From: Chloroflexota bacterium
GTDB lineage: Bacteria; Chloroflexota; Anaerolineae; Aggregatilineales; Phototrophicaceae
Direction: 5' to 3'
Assembly: GCA_016223085.1 (NCBI GenBank)
Contig: JACRPS010000021.1
Coordinates: forward strand, 124,001 to 188,000
Length of the DNA stretch: 64,000 nucleotides
The translations under genes and the position numbers were made by a program. Shown here piece by piece: positions 33,206-53,200 of the stretch. Each line of letters begins with the position of its first letter. The first letter of the stretch is position 1. The notes beneath the pieces were generated by a model. That model was given only the letters and a program-made list of their open reading frames with translations, searched no databases and was not told the DNA's origin.

Positions 33206-33227
33206 TGTAGGGGCGTACGCCCCTACA
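33206..33227. repeat. Short palindrome of the GTAGGGGCG subtype
   Basis: TGTAGGGGCGT and ACGCCCCTACA form a perfect 22-bp palindrome, about 100 bp after the previous copy and within the same operon gap. Confidence 0.92.
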
Positions 33228-43095: not shown

Positions 43096-43123
43096 GCCGC
43101 CGGTCTTTAGGCGGCTTTTTTTA
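43096..43123 (+). terminator. Intrinsic terminator
   Basis: GCCGCC (43096-43101), an 8-nt loop and GGCGGC (43110-43115) are followed by TTTTTTT. Confidence 0.88.
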
Positions 43124-43155
43124 TTTCCCGATTGTGACATCCCTCACGTCGTTTG

Positions 43156-43169
43156 TGTGATTTTTCACA
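43156..43169. promoter_or_regulatory. 14-bp palindrome, possible operator of the cytochrome operon
   Basis: TGTGATTTTTCACA: half-sites TGTGA and TCACA with a 4-bp spacer, 62 bp before the ArsR-type gene. The half-site is that of CRP/FNR-like and Rex boxes, but the spacer is shorter than in CRP (6). The regulator is unknown. Confidence 0.45.
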
Positions 43170-43231
43170 TTCGCCACTTTTGTTAATTCGTTCGAAAATT
43201 CACATAGATCAATATTCAAACGGATTATTTT

Positions 43232-43591
43232 GTGGATACACAGTTATTTCAGGAAATCGAGATGCTGCACGAGCGCATCTGTCTGGCGCTCGGCGACCCC
43301 AAACGGCTGATGATTCTGTACCTGCTGAGCCAGCATCAGCGCAGCGTCGGCGAACTGGCCCACGAACTGGACACGCCGCAGCCCACTATTTCCCATCATC
43401 TGAAAATCCTGCGCGAGCGCTCGCTCGTTCGCACGCATAAAGACGGAACGACCGTGTATTACGCGCTGGCCGATACGCGGGTGATCCAGGCTGTTGATCT
43501 GCTGCGCGCGGTGCTGCACGACAATCTGGCGGAGCAGGCGCGCCTGGCGGAGTTTCACGCGCTGGACGCTGAGCGCAAAGATTTAGGCTGA
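43232..43591 (+). CDS. ArsR/SmtB-family transcriptional regulator
   Basis: 119 residues, GTG start. The winged HTH carries LALGDPKRLMILYLLSQHQR, HELDTPQPTISHHLKILRER as the recognition helix and VRTHKDGTTVYYALADTRV as the wing. The metal-binding ELCVCDL motif is absent (GELAHELDTP instead); the only Cys is at residue 17. Relatives without the metal box include sulfide/redox sensors of the SqrR/BigR kind, though their two-Cys switch is not visible here. It sits immediately upstream of the cytochrome-rhodanese operon in the same direction and probably regulates it (inference). Confidence 0.9.
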   Translation: MDTQLFQEIEMLHERICLALGDPKRLMILYLLSQHQRSVGELAHELDTPQPTISHHLKILRERSLVRTHKDGTTVYYALADTRVIQAVDLLRAVLHDNLAEQARLAEFHALDAERKDLG

Positions 43592-43627
43592 TTAGTTTAC
43601 TTCGCAGTACAACAGGGGGAACAATTG

Positions 43628-45292
43628 ATGACAGGACGGTGGTTGACCGGGCTGCTGGGAAGCGGGGGATTGCTGATTCTGCTGGGTAGTCTGGTAGCGG
43701 GCTGCGCGCCGGATACCTCCGCACCCGTGTTGCAGCAGCGCCCCGGCGCGACGCCAACCGCGCCGGCAGTCGCCGTTAACCTGCCCCCTACCGAAGTCTG
43801 GCTTGAACCCTTCACCGATACCGCCTGCCTGCAATGCCACACCGACCAGGCCAGACTGACCGAACTTGCCAAACCGGTTGAGCCAAAGGAGTCCCTGTCC
43901 GAAGGGCCTGGCTGAGGCGGTTCCGTGGCTCCGTTGGAGCCATGGCAGCGCGTCTGGATTGACGCCACCACCTACAGCGCCGACACCCACTCCAACATCA
44001 ACTGCACCGCCTGTCACGGCGGGCAGGCGGTGGAGGACATGGACACCGCCCATACCGGCCTGGTTGCCTCCCCGGCTACGGACGCCGTTGCAACCTGTGG
44101 CAAATGCCACCCGGACAACACGCCGGCCAATATGAACAGCCTGCATTCAACACTGCGCGGCTATGATACCGTGCTGTACGAGCGCAGCGCCCCGGAAAAC
44201 CATGCCGCGCTGGAGACGATGCAGCAAAACCACTGCAATAGCTGCCACACCACCTGCGGCGACTGCCACGTCAGCCAGCCGAACTCGGTTGGCGGTGGGC
44301 TGCTGAAGGGGCATACCTTCGTCCAGACGCCGCCGATGAGCCAGACCTGCACCGCCTGTCACGGCAGCCGCGTCAAAAACGAGTACTTTGGCCTGAACGA
44401 AAACATCCCCAGCGACGTACATTTCCGCGCCCGCATGGCCTGCGCTGACTGCCACACGGGCGATGAGATTCACGGCACGACGGTCGCCGCCGATCATCGC
44501 TACGACCGGATGCAGGGGCTAGGCTGTGAATCGTGCCATGAAGACCAGATCGGCGTCGGGTCGGGCATCGAACAACACGAAATCCACGGCACGGAGTTGC
44601 TGTCCTGCCAGACCTGCCACAGCACCACCTACACCAACTGCGTCAACTGCCACGTCGAACAGACCGACGATCAGCAGCCGTTTTATACGATTGAGGAACA
44701 CTCGCTCGACTTTTTGATCGGGCGTAATCCGCTGCAAAACACCGACCGTCCGTACCGCTATGTGCCGGTGCGCCACGTGCCGGTTGACGTGAATTCGTTC
44801 AGCTTTTACGGTGATAACCTGCTGGTGAACTTCAACCGCCGCCCGACCTGGGCCTACGCGACGCCGCACAACATCCAGCGCGTCACGCCGCAGACGGAAA
44901 GCTGCACGGCCTGTCATGGCAACAACGACGTGTTTTTGACCGCCGATAAGGTGTCGCCGGCTGAACAGGCGGCCAACGCCAGCGTGATCGTAGAAGTCGC
45001 CCCGCCGCTGCCGGAAGGTTACGAGAACCGCGTCACCGGCCAGGAAGCGGCTCCGGCGGCTGAATCGGGCGGCGATTTCTGGGGTGGCGACAGCGCCGCC
45101 GAAGCCACTCCGGCGGTCAGCGGTGATAGTTTCTGGGGGAGCGAAGCCCCGGCAGCTACCCTGCCAGCCGATAGTTTCTGGGGCGGTGACGCCACTGACG
45201 CCACGCCGACGCCTGCTGGCGATGACCGCTTTTGGAGTGCGCCAGATGCCGAACCTACTGAAAGCAGTGACGATGCTTTCTGGGGAAGTTAG
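43628..45292 (+). CDS. 11-heme cytochrome c lipoprotein, candidate selenoprotein (UGA at codon 96)
   Basis: From the ATG at 43628 the frame encodes a lipoprotein leader (LLILLGSLVAGC), a linker and a first heme site CLQCH, and reaches TGA at 43913-43915. The same frame continues without another stop to 45292 and carries ten more CxxCH sites (CTACH, CGKCH, CNSCH, CGDCH, CTACH, CADCH, CESCH, CQTCH, CVNCH, CTACH). Read through, the product is 554 residues with ESLSEGPG-U-GGSVAPLEPW around the UGA. A 10-bp hairpin with a GUU loop starts 7 nt after the UGA (43923-43945), as in bacterial SECIS elements. The C-terminal tail has five FWG/FWS motifs. The protein would be extracytoplasmic and move electrons with the NrfD complex downstream. 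The alternative is a nonsense mutation splitting a normal cytochrome gene. Confidence 0.75.
43923..43945 (+). promoter_or_regulatory. Candidate bacterial SECIS hairpin
   Basis: CCGTGGCTCC (43923-43932) pairs with GGAGCCATGG (43936-43945): ten base pairs including one G-U, with loop GTT. The stem starts 7 nt after the UGA, so the loop G is about 17 nt from it. Known bacterial SECIS elements have a G at the start of a small apical loop at roughly this distance. Confidence 0.7.
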
Positions 45293-45327
45293 ATTTTTCG
45301 GGTAGATAAGACTCAAGGAGTCGTAAG

Positions 45328-46965
45328 ATGAAACGTTTCCTGTTCCTGCTCTTGCTCGTCATGATGACGGTCATGCCGGTTCTGGTCGTGACCGCCCAGG
45401 ACGAAGCGGTGGTGGCTCGTCTGGAAGCCTACAACGGCAGCCTGCCGAAGGGTTACGGCGTCACCAGCGTGGAAGATTTTAATGCGCTGCTGGCGGAAAA
45501 AGAACTGGTGCTGCTCGACGTGCGCCAGCCGGAAGAATATGCGGCGGGGCACATTCCCGGTTCGTTTAACGTGCCGATACGGGAACTGGGCCAGAACCTG
45601 AATCTGCTGCCCGACCTGGACGCTGAGATCATGGTGATCTGCAAGGGCGGCGGTCGCGCCATGCTGGCGATGACGGCGCTCAATGTCCTGGGTTACAACA
45701 ACGCCCGGATGCTCAAGGGCGGTTACGATGCCTGGGCCGGCGAAGAACTGCCGACCACGACCGAAGCGTTTGTGCCGGAAGCCGGCGCCGCGCCGGAAAT
45801 CGAACCCGCCGTGCTGGAAGCGGTAGACGCCTACCTGAGCACGCTGCCGGCAGGCTACAGCATCGTTGCGCCGAAAGACGTGGCGGTTGAACTGACCGAA
45901 AACGCCCCGATTCTGATTGACGTGCGCAGCCAGGAAGAATGGGACAAGGACGGCTACATCGAAGGCGCGCAGCACATCTGGATTAACGAATTCATGAGCC
46001 GCCAGGATGAATGGCCGGCGGACAAAGACGCCAACATCGTCGTGTATTGCGGCGGCGGCTTCCGGGGTGGCATCGCCACCGTTATGCTGGAACTGATGGG
46101 TTACAGCAACGTTCGCAACCTGGCGGGCGGCCTGGGCGGCTGGAAAGCGGCGGAACTGCCGGTGGTTGGCGCGCAGCCAGCCGAAGTGGAATTCAGCCTG
46201 GACCAGTTCCTGGCCGATTACGTCAGCGGCCTGCCGGAAACCTTCAACGCCCTGCGCGTGCAGGACCTGACCGATGCGATTGCGGCAGGTGAAGACACGC
46301 TGATCGTGGACGTGCGCACGGCGGACGAATACGCCGAAGGCCACATCGAAGGCGCGATCAATATCCCGCTGAACGATCTGACCGCGAACCTGAATCTGTT
46401 GCCGCATCTCGACCAGAACATCGTGATTGTCTGCGGCAGCGGCCACCGGTCGGCAGTGGCGATGACGGTGCTGAATCTGCTGGGTTACACCAACGTGCGC
46501 AGCCTGATGAGCGGTATGGGTGCCTGGACCAAGGCCGAACTGCCCGTGACCGATGTCGCTGCCGAAGCGGTGGCGGGCACGGCGCCGACGTTTGCGCCGG
46601 AAGTGCTGGCGCTGGTTGAGCCATTTGTCACCGGCATCCCGCAGGGGTACTACGCAGTCAAGGCGGCGGACCTGAGCGCCGAACTGATTGACAACCCGCC
46701 GGTGCTGCTGGACGTGCGCACCGATAGCGAATGGGCTAACGGCTTCATCGAAGGCGCGACGCACCTGCAACTGCGCGATTTTATGGCGCAGATGAGCGAG
46801 TGGCCGCAGGACAAGGCCGCGCCGGTCGTCGTCTACGACAACCCGACGCACCGCAGTTCGATGGCGCTGGTGTTCCTGAAGTTGATGGGCTACGAGAACG
46901 TCCGCGTGCTGGGCGGCGGCGTCGGCGCGTGGACTGCTGCCGAACTGCCGCTGGTGACGCCGTAA
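45328..46965 (+). CDS. Exported protein with four tandem rhodanese domains
   Basis: 545 residues after a signal peptide (MKRFLFLLLLVMMTVMPVLV). Four rhodanese domains are in tandem: LLDVRQPEEYAAGHIPGSFN with ICKGGGRAM; LIDVRSQEEWDKDGYIEGAQ with VYCGGGFRGG; IVDVRTADEYAEGHIEGAIN with IVCGSGHRSA; and LLDVRTDSEWANGFIEGATH with VYDNPTHRSS. The first three keep the catalytic Cys; the fourth has Asp. Domains 1/3 and 2/4 are most alike, suggesting a duplicated pair. Rhodaneses move sulfane sulfur, so a periplasm-side sulfur carrier for the adjacent cytochromes is likely (inference). The Shine-Dalgarno sequence AAGGAG lies between GACTC and GAGTC arms that could fold. Confidence 0.93.
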   Translation: MKRFLFLLLLVMMTVMPVLVVTAQDEAVVARLEAYNGSLPKGYGVTSVEDFNALLAEKELVLLDVRQPEEYAAGHIPGSFNVPIRELGQNLNLLPDLDAEIMVICKGGGRAMLAMTALNVLGYNNARMLKGGYDAWAGEELPTTTEAFVPEAGAAPEIEPAVLEAVDAYLSTLPAGYSIVAPKDVAVELTENAPILIDVRSQEEWDKDGYIEGAQHIWINEFMSRQDEWPADKDANIVVYCGGGFRGGIATVMLELMGYSNVRNLAGGLGGWKAAELPVVGAQPAEVEFSLDQFLADYVSGLPETFNALRVQDLTDAIAAGEDTLIVDVRTADEYAEGHIEGAINIPLNDLTANLNLLPHLDQNIVIVCGSGHRSAVAMTVLNLLGYTNVRSLMSGMGAWTKAELPVTDVAAEAVAGTAPTFAPEVLALVEPFVTGIPQGYYAVKAADLSAELIDNPPVLLDVRTDSEWANGFIEGATHLQLRDFMAQMSEWPQDKAAPVVVYDNPTHRSSMALVFLKLMGYENVRVLGGGVGAWTAAELPLVTP

Positions 46966-46990
46966 ACGTCGTTGGTTTTTCGGCTAAATC

Positions 46991-47023
46991 CGGTAGGGGC
47001 GAACCACCGGTTCGCCCCTACCG
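46991..47023. repeat. 33-bp palindrome of the GTAGGGGCG subtype
   Basis: CGGTAGGGGCGAACC, ACC and GGTTCGCCCCTACCG: perfect 15-bp arms between the rhodanese and 8-heme genes. Confidence 0.95.
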
Positions 47024-47074
47024 ACCGCGAGGTTTACGAACGGGTAAACCAGCCGCTGACAGATAGGGAATGTT

Positions 47075-47983
47075 ATGCGTACTTCGTCCAGTTTATGCCG
47101 CTGGTTGGCCGCAGCCATTGTGTTTGCGCTGGGCGCGGGTATAGCGGCTGCCCAGGAAGCGACCCCACCGCCGACGCCCGCTCCGGACTGCGCTGAGTGC
47201 CACCTTGACGTGGTGGCTGCCTGGCAGGACAGCATCCATGCCCAGGCGTACCATGACCCGGAATTTCAGACGGCGTGGCAGGCGCAGAAAAGTGACCCGG
47301 CCTGTCTGTCCTGTCATACTACCGGCTTTGTCGCCCGAACGGGGCAGTACGATCAGGCCGGCGTGACGTGTACGGCCTGTCATGGCGAAACACCCGCCAC
47401 CCACCCGCCGGAAGCGGTTCCAATTGACCCCGGCGTGAACGTCTGCGCCGACTGTCATCCAACCACTGTGAACGAGTGGGAAGCCAGCCTGCACGGCGAG
47501 CAGCAGTTGGCCTGCACCACCTGCCACACCCCGCATGACCAGAAAGTGCGGTTTGAGACCGCCAACGTGCTGTGCCTGAACTGCCACGACGAAACCCGCG
47601 CCGATTACGCCCACGTGTCGCATCCCGATCAGGCGTGTATTGACTGCCACTGGTATCGCAACCTGGACGAAACGCAGCACATCAAGACCGGCGACCTGCT
47701 CCCAACCGGCCACGACAGCCAGGTTGAAACTTTTACCTGTGTGGACTGCCATGCCAAGCTGCCGGAAAACGCGCAGGCCGTGACTCCCGCGTCACCGCAT
47801 CCGCTGACGGTGGCGCAGGTGCGCATCCACGAACTGGAAGCCGAAGTCCAGACGGCGCAGGCGCAGGGGGAAAACCAGGCCGCTGCCCAGCTCATCACCG
47901 GTCTGGTGGTCGGCGCGGTGGTGATGGGCATCGGCGTGGGCAGTTTTTCGCGCCTGCGGCGTGACCGGCGTCAGGAGGAGTGA
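47075..47983 (+). CDS. 8-heme membrane-anchored cytochrome c
   Basis: 302 residues. A signal peptide (LAAAIVFALGAGIAAAQ) is followed by eight CxxCH motifs (CAECH, CLSCH, CTACH, CADCH, CTTCH, CLNCH, CIDCH, CVDCH) between about 39 and 227, then a short coiled region (ELEAEVQTAQAQGENQAAAQ) and a C-terminal helix (LITGLVVGAVVMGIGVGSF) with an Arg-rich end. The cytochrome domain faces outside. Shared stop-start (GTGATG) with the ferredoxin gene shows tight coupling. It probably relays electrons between the NrfD/ferredoxin pair and an external acceptor or donor. Its size and plain CxxCH sites do not match the MccA sulfite reductase. Confidence 0.92.
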   Translation: MRTSSSLCRWLAAAIVFALGAGIAAAQEATPPPTPAPDCAECHLDVVAAWQDSIHAQAYHDPEFQTAWQAQKSDPACLSCHTTGFVARTGQYDQAGVTCTACHGETPATHPPEAVPIDPGVNVCADCHPTTVNEWEASLHGEQQLACTTCHTPHDQKVRFETANVLCLNCHDETRADYAHVSHPDQACIDCHWYRNLDETQHIKTGDLLPTGHDSQVETFTCVDCHAKLPENAQAVTPASPHPLTVAQVRIHELEAEVQTAQAQGENQAAAQLITGLVVGAVVMGIGVGSFSRLRRDRRQEE

Positions 47984-48810
47984 TGGAGGAGAAGTTTGTC
48001 TCCCGCCGTGACTTTGTGAAGCTGATGGCCGGGCTGGGCGTGGGCGTATCCGCCCTCGCCGTGCTGGGCAGCGCCGATCGGCTGGGCCAGCTTCTCCGTG
48101 AGGAACAGGCGCTTGACCTGGCCGCTGCGGCAGAACCCCACACGGCTGCCGCCAGTGGTCACCCGCACCGCTGGGGCATGGTTATCAACCTGAGCGCCTG
48201 CATCGGCTGCGACTACTGCGTGTATGCCTGCCAGGCGGTCAACGACGTGCCGGACGACATGCGCTGGAATGTGCATCTGATCGAACGGACGGAAACGGGG
48301 CGGGTCTTCCACATGACACGCCCGTGCCTGCACTGCCAGGATGCACCGTGCGCGGCGGTTTGCCCGGTCGGCGCGACTTACGTCCGCGACGACGGCATCG
48401 TCATCATGGATTACACCAAATGTATCGGCTGCCGTTACTGCCAGGTGGCCTGCCCCTACGGCGCGCGCAGCTTCAACTGGGGCGAGCGCGAGGGCAGCAG
48501 TGGCTACCAGCCGGAATGGGGCAGCGCCGAGATCGAACGGCGCCCGCGTGGGGTGGTGGAAAAATGCACCTTCTGCGTGCATCGCATTGATCGGGGGCTG
48601 GCGCAAGGGCTGATGCCCGGCGTAGACCGGCAGGCGACGCCAGCCTGTGTCAACATCTGCCCGGTGAAAGCGCGCGTGTTTGGTGATCTGAATGACCCCA
48701 ACAGCCCGGTGTCGCAGGCGATTGCGGCCAATCCCACCTTTCGCCTGCGTGAAGACCTGGGCACGGAACCGAACGTGTATTACATTCCGCCGGAGGGGAT
48801 GACGCTGTGA
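47983..48810 (+). CDS. Ferredoxin subunit with Tat-like leader (NrfC/PsrB/HybA-like)
   Basis: 275 residues from the ATG at 47983 (AGGAGGAG upstream). The N-terminus has SRRDFVKLM, a twin-arginine signal, and a hydrophobic stretch. Cys clusters for four 4Fe-4S centres follow: CIGCDYCVYAC, CLHCQDAPCAAVCP, CIGCRYCQVACPYGARSFNW, and CTFC with CVNICP. These are the marks of the beta subunit of complex iron-sulfur enzymes (NrfC, PsrB, HybA). It transfers electrons between the NrfD quinone site and a catalytic or cytochrome partner. It overlaps the NrfD gene by 4 bp. No molybdopterin subunit is nearby. Confidence 0.94.
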   Translation: MEEKFVSRRDFVKLMAGLGVGVSALAVLGSADRLGQLLREEQALDLAAAAEPHTAAASGHPHRWGMVINLSACIGCDYCVYACQAVNDVPDDMRWNVHLIERTETGRVFHMTRPCLHCQDAPCAAVCPVGATYVRDDGIVIMDYTKCIGCRYCQVACPYGARSFNWGEREGSSGYQPEWGSAEIERRPRGVVEKCTFCVHRIDRGLAQGLMPGVDRQATPACVNICPVKARVFGDLNDPNSPVSQAIAANPTFRLREDLGTEPNVYYIPPEGMTL

Positions 48811-50045
48811 TCGGTATCCTGCGCCGCCGGGTCGAGCAGTCGGCATCACCGTTTATGGTCTGGTTGGGCGTTCTGGGGCTGTTGATCGCCGTCGGGGTGG
48901 TTTGCGCTGTGCTGGTCTTCGCCAACGGTCTGAAGATCACGGCGCTGTCGAACCTCGTGCCCTGGGGGTTGTGGATTACCGTTGACCTGTCCGCGATTGC
49001 GCTGGGCGCCGGCGCGTTTTCACTGTCCACCATCGCCTATCTGTTCCGTGTGAAAGCCTTCCAGCGGATTGCCCGCATCGCCGTGTTTGTCGGCCTGGTC
49101 GGTTACACCTCCGCTATGCTGGCGCTGCTGCTGGACATTGGCCGCCCCGACCGCTTCTGGCATCCGGTCGTATTCTGGAACGTACATTCGGTGCTGTGGG
49201 AAATCACCATGTGCGTCATCCTGTATTCGTCGGTGCTGCTGGTGGAATTCGCGCCGGTATTCCTGGAAAGCGATGCAGTGCGCCGCCGCTTCCCGCGCGG
49301 GTCACAGATAGGCCACTGGCTACACCGCCTGACGCCGGTCGTGTCGGTGCTGGGGCTGGCGCTGTCGCTGTTGCACCAGTCGTCGCTGGGCGCGACTTAC
49401 GGCGTGCTGGTTGCCCGACCGATCTGGTTTAAACCCTCGATGCCGGTCATGTTTATCCTGTCGGCGGTCGCCGCCGGGGGCACGTTCACGCTGGGGCTGA
49501 CCATCCTCTACGAAAACCTCGTCCGCCGGCGCCAGATTGACGGCAGCCTACGCCGCTACGTCGCCATCTTCGCCGGGCTGATGATGCTGGCCTACCTGTA
49601 CCTCAAGCTGTGGGATTTCCTGGCAACCAGCTACTACAGCCATCTACCGGCGAGCGCGGAGGCATTAGACCTGTTAAGCCGCAGCACCCCCTATACCGCC
49701 GCCTTCTGGCTGGTGGAAGTGGTGCTTGGCGCGCTGCTGCCGGCAGTGATTTTGCTGGTGCCGCGCTGGCGTCAGCGGGATACCTGGGTGCTGCTGGCCG
49801 CCGCGCTGGCCGTGATGGGTATCATCGTTAACCGCTGGAACGTTACGCTGTCGGGGCTGATCGTCCCGCTGGACTGGTCGCCCGGGGCGGCGGAGTTGTT
49901 CCCGGTGAACGCTTATTTGCCGAGTCTGGTGGAATGGGGTGTGGCGCTGGGTGTGCTCGGTTACGCGCTGCTGATTTTTACGCTGGGACTGCGCTTTCTG
50001 CCGATGTTCCCTGACCCGATATCCCACAGCCAGCATGAAAATTAA
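48807..50045 (+). CDS. NrfD/PsrC-family quinone-interacting membrane subunit
   Basis: 412 residues and about ten hydrophobic segments. Typical NrfD features are the segment VPWGLWITVDLSAIALGAGA, LALLLDIGRPDRFWHPVVFW and ITMCVILYSSVLLVEFAPVF. The Arg and Asp in LDIGRPDRFW are those proposed to form part of the quinol site or proton path in this family. It would exchange electrons between menaquinone and the ferredoxin subunit upstream. It ends 12 bp before a strong bidirectional terminator (50057-50086), so it closes the operon. Confidence 0.94.
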   Translation: MIGILRRRVEQSASPFMVWLGVLGLLIAVGVVCAVLVFANGLKITALSNLVPWGLWITVDLSAIALGAGAFSLSTIAYLFRVKAFQRIARIAVFVGLVGYTSAMLALLLDIGRPDRFWHPVVFWNVHSVLWEITMCVILYSSVLLVEFAPVFLESDAVRRRFPRGSQIGHWLHRLTPVVSVLGLALSLLHQSSLGATYGVLVARPIWFKPSMPVMFILSAVAAGGTFTLGLTILYENLVRRRQIDGSLRRYVAIFAGLMMLAYLYLKLWDFLATSYYSHLPASAEALDLLSRSTPYTAAFWLVEVVLGALLPAVILLVPRWRQRDTWVLLAAALAVMGIIVNRWNVTLSGLIVPLDWSPGAAELFPVNAYLPSLVEWGVALGVLGYALLIFTLGLRFLPMFPDPISHSQHEN

Positions 50046-50056
50046 GCTATATTAAA

Positions 50057-50086
50057 CAAAAAGCGTCCCGCTTGGGACGCTTTTTG
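50057..50086. terminator. Strong bidirectional terminator
   Basis: CAAAAAGCGTCCC and GGGACGCTTTTTG flank a 4-nt loop. U-tracts on both strands end the NrfD operon on the plus strand and any transcript reading down from the island on the minus strand. Confidence 0.93.
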
Positions 50087-50096
50087 TCACTCGTTC

Positions 50097-50168
50097 GTGC
50101 CTGGAGGGATTCGAACCCCCGGCCCTTTGCTCCGTAGGATTGTGCTCACCTCTTCATATCTTAGGTAC
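50097..50168 (-). pseudogene. Degenerate tRNA-Arg(ACG)-like sequence
   Basis: 72 nt on the minus strand. The 3' half looks like a good tRNA: CTACGGA as anticodon loop (ACG) and GGGGG-TTCGAAT-CCCTC as T arm. The D arm is not pairable and the acceptor GTACCTA/CAGGCAC has two mismatches. The length and spacing equal a normal tRNA, which suggests decay of a real gene rather than chance. Confidence 0.5.
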
Positions 50169-50259
50169 GTGAAGGGACTCGAACCCACGACACCTTGCTG
50201 GTGTCTACCTCAGCTTGGTTTTCGATGGATTTGCCTCATTCTGTTTCCCCATTCGTACC
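50164..50259 (-). pseudogene. Degenerate class II tRNA-like sequence
   Basis: About 96 nt on the minus strand. GGTACG/CGTACC could close an acceptor, GACACC-AGCAA-GGTGTC resembles a long variable arm and GTGGG-TTCGAGT-CCCTT a weak T arm. The D and anticodon arms are not convincing and U33 is missing. It overlaps the Arg-like sequence by 5 nt. It may be a remnant of a Ser/Leu-type tRNA. Confidence 0.35.
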
Positions 50260-50261
50260 GC

Positions 50262-53200
50262 CTAAGGCGCAGCGATGACGAAACTCTCCACTGTGCTCCA
50301 GGCTCCCCACTGAGTAAGTGTTTTCTGGGCACGAACACGCCAATAGTAAGTTCCGTTGTTCAATTCTGGCGTAGTCCATGACGTTTGGTCAGGCAACAAT
50401 TGCTGGATATAATTGTAGGTTCCATCAAACCCCTTGCTGTTGTTGATTTGCACTTCATAGACTTGCGCCCAAGTAATGGGACCCCAGAATAGCGTCACAG
50501 TCTTCGAAGAGACGGAATTCCGCGAAGGGGCGGCGCTCTCAGGTGAACAGGCGAGGGTGCTTGCGACCACAGCGTTGGTGTAGCCAGAATATTCTTGGTC
50601 CTGGGAGCGATATGCTCTTACCCGATAATAGTAGGTGGTAGCGCAACTCAACTGGTTATCGACGTAGAGGGTATAGTCGGTTGATGTCTGTCCTACCACA
50701 AGCCAGCCAGTCTGACCGTCTCCAGATCGCTCAATGTAGAAATCGGTCTCATCAAGCGAAGTATCAATCCACCGTAGAGCAATTTGGTTAACGGAAATTG
50801 GATTTAGGGTAAGACCCGTTGGGGCCGCAACAGGTAAACAATCAGAGGTCGTGGCATTCACAGTCGGTGAGTAATCTGACATCTCACCTCTAGCTTTACG
50901 ATGGGTCAGAACACGGTAATAGTAGCTTTTCTCGCAGGTAAGGTTGCTATCGGTGTAGCTATTGATGTCAGCATTGGTCTGACCAATCTCAATCCAGTTA
51001 TTGATCCCATCCACTGAACGTTCAACGCTAAATCCCATTTCACCAAGTGAAGTATCAGTCCAATTCAACCGTATTTCAGAAGCAGAAATTGCTGAAGCGG
51101 ACACGTCGCTTGGCGGATTTAGAGGAGGGCAAGCATCAGTCGTTGCGCTCACGGTTTCAGAATACGGCGAATACGCGCCATTACTACTGCGATAGGCGCG
51201 GATGCGGAAATAGTATGAGGTCTCACATATCCCGGTGGTGTCTTGATACTCAACAGCGTTTGGATCGGTAATACCAATTTCAACCCAATCAGTTGCTCCG
51301 TCTAATGATCGCTCGATGCTGAACCCAGTTTCGTCAAGTGCATTCTCCAGCCAACTTAGATTGATCTGATGGAACGAAACGGTTGTAGCCATCAAATTGA
51401 TTGGGGTAGGAAGCGATGGACATGTGGTTGTGATTACTTCCACGACATTCGAGTAGCGCGTGTACCGTCCGTCACTAAGGTGAGCACGGACGCGATAATA
51501 ATAGGTACTTTCGCAAATCACAGAGGTGTCGGCGTAGTCTTGCCCATTCTGGGCTACGGTGCCGATTTCCGCCCAGTTTGTCACTCCATCCGATGATCGT
51601 TCGATGCTGAATTCAGTTTCGTGGAATGCATTGTCTGTCCAGGCCAGATCAACCTCATTATACTGAGCCGTATTAGCCGATAAGGCTGTTGGTGCAGAAT
51701 TTAGCGTCAGGGAAAGACTGCTGGAGTTCGTCCAGCTATCGAAATCCAGCTCATTTAACCACACGGTAACAATGTTAGATTGGCTTCCAACCGCTGGTGA
51801 GTTGAACCGTACCGTTACATTGAGAATTACACTACTACCCGCCGCCAAATCACCAATCGTACAGAAATATTGACCAAGTTTCTGTGTGCAGGCATATTGT
51901 GATGGTGTGACCTGCACCAGGGCAGAGTGGACGGGTATGACATCCCGAATCACGACGCCCGTAGCGTTTTGAGTCCCCTGATTATTGACTATAACGGTAT
52001 ACGTTACTTCATCCAGCTCCTGTACTACCGATTTGGAAGCAGTCTGGTTTATAACCAAATCTGTTTTGACAGGAGGAACAACGGGCAGGGGATTCTCCGC
52101 CAGGAACACATCTTGTTGTTGATTAGGGTCGTTAATGACCAGGGTAGCTACGGCAGAGCTAAATACAGCATAATGACCATCGGAGGACAGTGAGGGTTCC
52201 CAGGACGTATCTCTGCCCGGTATACCCGCTGTGTCGGTGGACAGGATTACAATTTGTCCCGTGATACGATCTTTAAGGTAAACCTGATAAGCACCATAGG
52301 TATCTTCATCAACCAGATTCCAGGCATCCGATCTAAAAAGAATATATCGTCCGTCTGCTGAAATCTGTGGGTCCTGTGATACTCCGGAAGCTGGGACGCC
52401 GTTGGCGTTAGTCGAAACTCGTGTGGCATCTCCCGTACGCATATCATACAGATAGATTTCTCTGCCGGTGTACCCTTTAGCATAATAAGGTAAATAAGCG
52501 ATATAATGCCCATCGGAGGATATCGAAGGGGCAGCGTAACCGGGGAGACCGCTTGCCGCGATTAGGGTGGTTGTGTGGGTTACCAGATCGTGCAGAAAAA
52601 CATCGGGAGCGTCGTTTGTATCATTGGCAATCAGGTTACTTGCAGTGGATGAAAATGTAACAAAATGTCCGTCGGCAGAGATACTTGGAGGATACGACAC
52701 ATTGTTAGCCTGAACGCCGTCAGAACTTACCGAAACCCTCATCGTTTGCCCGGTTAAACGATCATGGACAAACACATCCTCCACATTATTGGTATCGCCA
52801 CTGACCAGGTTGCTTGCACGAGATGTAAACGCAATGAAACGGCCATCTCGTGAAATGCTCGCATTATCGGAAATGCCATTAGCTTGCGTACCGTCACTGG
52901 CAATTGAGATACGTGTTACTTCGCCAAGCACAGTATCACGAACAAAGACATCTCTTGTCCGGTTGGTATCGCCGTTTATTAACGTCGTTGCGTTGGAAGC
53001 GAAGGCTACATAACGGCCATCACCTGAAATCGCTGGTCCCCATGAGACAGCGTTCGCATGATAACCATTAGCTGAAGCAGAAATCAACGATTTTCGGCAC
53101 GTCAATCGGTCGTAGAGAAACACATCTGTGAGGTAATTGTAGTCACTGGCAACCATATTATCGGCTGACGTCTGAAATGCTACATAACGGCCATCTCCAG

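Follow-up and report, generated by a model that had tools for sequence, protein, structure and literature searches.

In a 64,000-nucleotide stretch of the genome of a Chloroflexota bacterium (class Anaerolineae; assembly GCA_016223085.1, contig JACRPS010000021.1, positions 124,001 to 188,000, hereafter the window), one forward-strand gene (43628..45292) encodes a multiheme c-type cytochrome with a single in-frame UGA. Comparative sequence evidence makes it highly probable (about 0.93 in our estimate) that this UGA is decoded as selenocysteine (Sec) by SelA, SelB, SelC and SelD, with the aid of a selenocysteine insertion sequence (SECIS) hairpin, the whole frame being one gene. The product would be a lipoprotein that is exported and carries 11 hemes, its Sec standing in a glycine-rich loop between the first and the second of them. 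Decoding of the UGA as Sec had been proposed in an initial annotation of the window and is now strongly supported by the presence of the Sec machinery, by the conservation of the TGA and by covariation in the SECIS stem.

The gene and the conservation of its UGA

The frame opens with ATG (43628) and closes with TAG (45290-45292), the TGA at 43913..43915 (codon 96) being its only other stop. With UGA read as Sec, the protein has 554 residues, a lipoprotein leader with the lipobox LVAG-C26 (the export signal was judged by eye) and eleven CxxCH motifs, one before the TGA (C67) and ten after it, a layout that the initial annotation had described and that we find in the sequence. Residue 96 stands in the loop motif G-P-G-U-G-G (43904..43921), whose form across the family is G-x-G-U-G-G.

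Homologues were collected from 200 related genomes (its own included), of which 49 had a match and 47 remained after the weak partial hits in G157 and G173 were dropped; 45 of these 47, its own genome among them, carry the TGA at this codon. The exceptions are G144 (loci L027/L058), with a frameshift in the Sec region, and G150 (L047), which has neither the UGA nor the motif and one CxxCH fewer. In the latter genome SelA is matched only weakly (E 1.3e-28) and nothing scores over the SelB cut-off, as would fit a loss of Sec use. A scan of named GTDB contigs, in which both search patterns lie 3' of the UGA, so that it was not biased towards this codon, kept 80 of 400 related stretches, overlapping with the 47 relatives in many identical records. 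In 79 of these 80 named loci the Sec codon is TGA, never TAA or TAG, and the eightieth (L080) is taken to be the same record as the frameshifted G144. The glycines at -3, -1, +1 and +2 around the U are invariant in all 79 TGA loci; more distant loci carry Ala at +1 (L052, L053) or at both +1 and +2 (L055). Additionally, an in-frame TGA is present in all 13 full-length matches (12 genomes, its own included) among 400 genomes of the phylum, and seven of these loci, examined closely, have it within the same motif. Locus L153 has an extra TAA, L057 is truncated by a contig end, and one genome of another class holds two copies (L157 and G209:C524:6226-7446) with one in-frame TGA each.

Bacterial selenoproteins are recognised by a UGA conserved as Sec or Cys, and in this family the site is conserved as UGA. 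The alignment of homologues, by which the initial annotation had proposed to tell Sec from Cys, gives TGA nearly always, and no Cys form was found among the homologues in the 200 relatives, the 80 loci kept of 400 GTDB hits and the full-length matches in the 400 phylum genomes. In the UGA-less relatives, L047 and a distant relative in another class (L159:736-2448, with no UGA, the loop missing and no Cys there), the Sec motif is gone and not replaced by Cys; L159 is possibly of a Sec-free ancestor type. Its gene adjoins a small multiheme gene which, judged by eye, we take to be NapC/NrfH-like. In viral contigs, 39 pattern hits were obtained and none was a relative. In the 79 TGA loci one CxxCH always precedes the UGA, followed by ten (40 loci), eleven (21) or twelve (18); eleven hemes is the minimum and the commonest number, and not a fixed one.

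The SECIS hairpin

The hairpin (43923..43945, forward strand) begins 7 nt after the TGA and has a 10-bp stem with one G-U pair, closed by a GUU loop at a spacing of 17 nt from the UGA, as first described. The minimum free energy (MFE) of a 48-nt fold is -28.3 kcal/mol (z = -4.19), and none of 200 shuffles was as stable. A 2026 review (PMC13188914) gives, for bacterial SECIS elements, a loop of 3-9 nt, a stem of 4-16 bp, an early loop G, a spacing of 16-37 nt and an MFE of -7.5 or lower. The window hairpin lies within all these limits (10 bp, GUU, 17 nt, -17.3 kcal/mol). The same limits are passed at 84 of 93 loci, but when other codons were sampled from the 79 genes, only 53 of 1580 passed.

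Stem covariation was followed in 93 sequences (90 distinct). For the ten-pair stem, 85.9% of the cells are paired, a value that falls to 39-45% when the partner is slid by 1-3 columns, and 33 pair cells carry changes in both partners, where shuffling gives 8.9 on average and reaches 33 in 0 of 500 runs; pair 16-28, for instance, is G-C in 59 sequences and C-G in 26. Codon usage points in the same direction. Residues 100-104, which lie in the hairpin, are the five least codon-variable of 175 conserved degenerate columns (80 sequences), being encoded by GTG (78/79), GCT (60/60), CCG (78/79), TTG (62/62) and GAG (78/78). Their mean relative codon diversity is about 0.01, compared with 0.89 elsewhere (Mann-Whitney p = 3e-5 for residues 100-105 versus the columns outside 98-106).

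The Sec machinery

The initial annotation had made its proposal depend on selA, selB, selC and selD, and the genome of the window (6.03 Mb, 37 contigs) encodes all of them: SelA (449 bits), SelB (373 bits, over the cut-off), SelD (368 bits) and a tRNA-Sec (73 bits) with the anticodon TCA. The genome's own selD (G000 contig C35:83024-83959) carries an in-frame UGA after AACAG, which we take to be the usual Sec/Cys site. SelA was found in 43 of the 47 homologue-bearing genomes and in 114 of the 153 others (one-sided Fisher p = 0.008), a modest effect given how widespread Sec use is in the class. Two of the four homologue-bearing genomes without SelA (G123 and G124) have SelB over the cut-off. 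Moreover, four loci (L072, L074, L077 and L081) carry selB and selA no more than about 6 kb from the UGA, selA at 3.9 to 5.9 kb, in the order selB, selA, NrfD, iron-sulfur (FeS) protein and multiheme cytochrome MHC2 on one strand, with the selenocytochrome and a rhodanese divergent from them.

The encoded protein and its structure models

Several CxxCH motifs, an export signal and cytochrome Pfam domains over the cut-off place the protein among multiheme cytochromes c. The domains over their Pfam gathering scores are MtrC/MtrF domain II/IV-like, Cytochrome_C7 and Cytochrom_c3_2 (PF22113, PF14522, PF14537), with best stretches at residues 124-283, 262-332 and 265-342, all C-terminal of the Sec loop. 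No NCBIfam model was matched by the window protein at its cut-off, and for 61 aligned family members the best E value among the matches listed (25 of 31 families) was 6.5e-12. Besides those of the CxxCH motifs, eleven His (121, 142, 173, 202, 229, 265, 282, 317, 320, 383 and 414) are kept in 60-61 of the 61 members, two further His in 53 and 55 and two Met in 59-60. The eleven CxxCH and the eleven other conserved His thus allow one possible distal ligand per heme.

The AlphaFold model of the window protein has a mean confidence (pLDDT) of 81 and a pTM of 0.77; over the ten-residue stretch that starts at Sec the mean is 65. VIA-align ranks octaheme tetrathionate reductase first for this model (1sp3; Z 9.0, root-mean-square deviation 4.4, 262 residues; next match 4.2), to be read with the caveat that models lacking any clear counterpart often reach a best Z of 7-8. 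For a second model, that of the Bellilinea family member (pLDDT 76), the matches were hydroxylamine oxidoreductases at no more than Z 3.8 and 3.6, and 1sp3 was not listed. A fold tie to octaheme tetrathionate reductase can be suggested only tentatively from these models. Foldseek gave best E values of 2.0 (PDB) and 5.5 (BFVD), and a sequence search of the PDB gave one chain below E 0.01 (28pb_A, E 2.1e-5) among 13 chains up to E 10.

Neighbouring genes

All the window genes described here lie on the forward strand. Directly upstream is a gene for an ArsR/SmtB-family regulator (43232..43591), linked by adjacency only, with a homologue nearby in 2 of the 79 loci. The gene 35 nt downstream (45328..46965) encodes an exported protein with four rhodanese domains (PF00581, four stretches), and a four-domain rhodanese lies 3' of the selenocytochrome in 75 of the 79 loci; in the remaining four (L083, L085, L095, L121) the contig stops at most 1.7 kb from the UGA. 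In the window and the 66 loci with a long enough open reading frame (ORF), the active-site Cys is present in 67/67 for three of the domains and in 53/67 for the fourth, which in the window protein has Asp in its place.

Further downstream are genes for MHC2 (47075..47983), in which eight CxxCH and a membrane anchor at the C-terminus were read by eye, a 4Fe-4S protein (47980..48810) with a leader of the Tat (twin-arginine translocation) type by eye and likeness to DsrO (208.7 bits, cut-off 200), and an NrfD/QrcD-like membrane subunit (48807..50045; PF03916, 110 bits; best NCBIfam model QrcD, below cut-off). They are near in 38, 31 and 28 of the 79 loci, respectively, many of which are too short to tell. 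A neighbour cluster with a LysR-type regulator as its annotated representative occurs in 51 loci (33 of its 51 members lie on the other strand), and the cytochrome c maturation genes CcmB and Cytochrom_C_asm are near in seven loci each. Between the rhodanese and MHC2 genes lies a perfect inverted repeat of 13 bp around a 3-nt loop (46993-47021), with no further exact copy in the window and two copies with 2 mismatches at 33207-33226. A scan of 43100-50300 for consensus signals gave 2 promoters, where shuffled sequence gave 1.7 on average, and 10 terminators, where it gave 6.1; these are not used as evidence.

Proposed function and alternative explanations

A lone TGA in an otherwise open frame resembles a nonsense mutation, which the initial annotation had named as the main alternative, or a sequencing error, either of which would mean a broken gene. 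The probability left to this is negligible: the same TGA recurs in 79/80 named loci and 45/47 genomes, its flanking residues are conserved, and in the 79 TGA loci one CxxCH stands before it and at least ten after it. Conservation on both sides of the UGA excludes the nonsense mutation, and a misread TGC or TGT is ruled out because the codon recurs in tens of genomes that were assembled separately. Equally negligible is a reassignment of UGA to Trp or another residue; it would leave the frame open, but 19 of the 79 selenocytochrome genes terminate with TGA and just one UGA per gene needs read-through, which bears out the earlier view that a general reassignment was unlikely. Two separate proteins, with a stop at the UGA and a restart at the GTG three codons on (43925), would be very improbable, even though an ORF can be listed from this GTG and, of the 79 sequences with Val at this position, 78 use GTG. 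Hemes of c type are attached outside the cytoplasm, and the second product would be without an export signal. Other members have GTA, GTC, TTG, ACG or CCG at that codon, the GTG belongs to the stem (GTA goes with a pair-restoring change, A-U for G-C, in three sequences), and the proximity of selA and selB in four loci would be left unexplained.

For the Sec-containing protein itself we propose a role in sulfur chemistry. Sulfane sulfur is suggested by the exported rhodanese, which has a catalytic Cys and is the one near-constant partner, and menaquinone exchange is suggested in some genomes by the NrfD-type modules. The rhodanese would collect or deliver sulfane sulfur, the Sec selenolate would bind it as a selenosulfide, and the heme chain would exchange electrons with the bound sulfur, in the direction of either reduction or oxidation. 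In the genome of the window, MHC2, the FeS protein and the NrfD/QrcD-like subunit may connect the heme chain to the menaquinone pool, the last of these being expected to exchange electrons with menaquinone. This route from sulfane sulfur through the selenosulfide and the hemes to menaquinone we regard as plausible, at somewhat less than even odds. Its extension to a selenoenzyme of the whole class, in which a mobile loop beside one of the hemes bears the Sec, a dedicated four-domain rhodanese supplies it with sulfane sulfur and at least 11 hemes carry the electrons, in sulfur respiration, must be considered doubtful. Since eleven other conserved His can serve eleven hemes, Sec is more likely a chemical site than a heme ligand, and a flexible GxGUGG arm would also suit a redox or sulfur-carrying site better. 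Sec as sixth heme ligand was considered and, given the 11 non-motif His kept in 60-61 of the 61 members, appears disfavoured.

A substrate other than sulfur (selenite, tellurite or another metalloid or metal), handled by a Sec cytochrome similar to those of the Geobacter Ext system, is rather improbable. The ext cluster likewise joins a rhodanese (ExtH) and a Sec cytochrome (ExtKL), according to PMC5877670, there are weak matches below cut-off to the ExtM, ExtN and ExtO models, and an ArsR regulator adjoins the window gene. On the other side, the genome has no ExtKL relative over the cut-off, the window gene is outside the matches to NF040886 up to E 10, none of the nine annotated neighbour clusters (two of them without a Pfam match) was recognised as a porin or bc-type partner, and ArsR is near in just 2/79 loci. 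Somewhat less probable still is a member of an extracellular electron-transfer chain, with Sec in a structural or heme-tuning role, in spite of the MtrC/MtrF domain over its gathering score, the lipoprotein leader and the many hemes. Against heme tuning speak the availability of distal ligands from the eleven conserved His, the Gly-rich loop modelled at lower confidence and the rhodanese partner, which would be left unexplained; the fact that no Cys substitution is seen points instead to a selenium-specific reaction.

Several observations weigh against the decoding of the UGA as Sec or against the sulfur role. The support for Sec incorporation is at the sequence level only. Nine of the 93 hairpins fail the strict criteria and at least two of the 84 passes come from another hairpin, and by chance the criteria are also passed by 41 of the 498 codons taken elsewhere in the window gene and by 5 of 19 terminal UGAs. 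In the stem, the two outermost pairs are broken in 46 and 37 of the 90 distinct sequences and pair 14-30 in 31, so that the conserved core consists of the six loop-proximal pairs and G13-U31. Two homologue-bearing genomes (G133 and G144, 81% and 69% complete) have neither SelA nor SelB over the cut-off. Regarding function, the number of CxxCH departs from 11 in 39 of the 79 named loci (12 or 13), NrfD is near in only 28/79 (many on short contigs), the tetrathionate reductase match (Z 9.0) was not repeated with the second model, and the sulfur role is drawn from a single neighbour.

Comparison with known systems

Selenocytochromes are barely known, and the Chloroflexota family is widespread, with no Cys form among the members inspected and a near-constant sulfur-transfer partner. 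Gene callers would be expected to split such a gene at the UGA, in which case these genomes would be misannotated. One member belongs to a named strain, Bellilinea caldifistulae GOMI-1 (L135), presumably a cultured one, which makes the Sec claim testable. The family may also bear on the Sec-factor puzzle in some Anaerolineae: Anaerolinea thermophila UNI-1, according to PMC4959059, encodes an elongation factor for Sec although no Sec dehydrogenase is annotated in it.

With the Psr, Qrc, Hmc and Dsr-type NrfD modules the window shares an FeS protein (DsrO over cut-off) and an NrfD-family subunit, but the latter is below the QrcD, HmcC and DsrP cut-offs, and no molybdopterin subunit is found among the four genes downstream of the selenocytochrome. 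MtrC/MtrF and cytochrome c7/c3 domains are shared over Pfam gathering scores, the matched stretches lying past the Sec loop. The octaheme family TIGR04315, to which 1sp3 belongs, may resemble the window protein in its multiheme fold (Z 9.0, with the window model), but has eight hemes by name, compared with 11 here. The window gene is not among its matches up to E 10 (cut-off 375 bits), 4 of the 61 aligned members of the Chloroflexota family match it weakly (best E 1.9e-5), and a true TIGR04315 member is encoded elsewhere in the genome of the window (573.6 bits; G000 contig C17:301930-303165).

The closest precedent is ExtKL of Geobacter, a published candidate selenocytochrome with one predicted Sec, whose gene lies beside the rhodanese gene extH (PMC5877670). 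Both are c-type cytochromes with one predicted Sec, clustered with a rhodanese or rhodanese-like protein. According to the same text ExtKL has 5 hemes and 49.5 kDa, whereas the window protein has 11 hemes, and it comes from another phylum with other neighbours; the window gene is not among the matches to the ExtKL model (NF040886, cut-off 250 bits) up to E 10. In Table 1 of PMC13188914 (119 families or subfamilies by the count in its text), the c-type cytochrome families are two, ExtKL and an octaheme family with a GenBank-annotated Sec member, and no entry was found for the Chloroflexota family, of which no description was found in the open-licence literature either. Thus, of the initial suggestion that the type was undescribed, the part concerning selenocytochromes in general does not hold, ExtKL being already known, and the part concerning a family with 11 or more hemes stands. 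We rate it as a new selenocytochrome family, not the first of its type, with an unusual architecture and an unusual partner.
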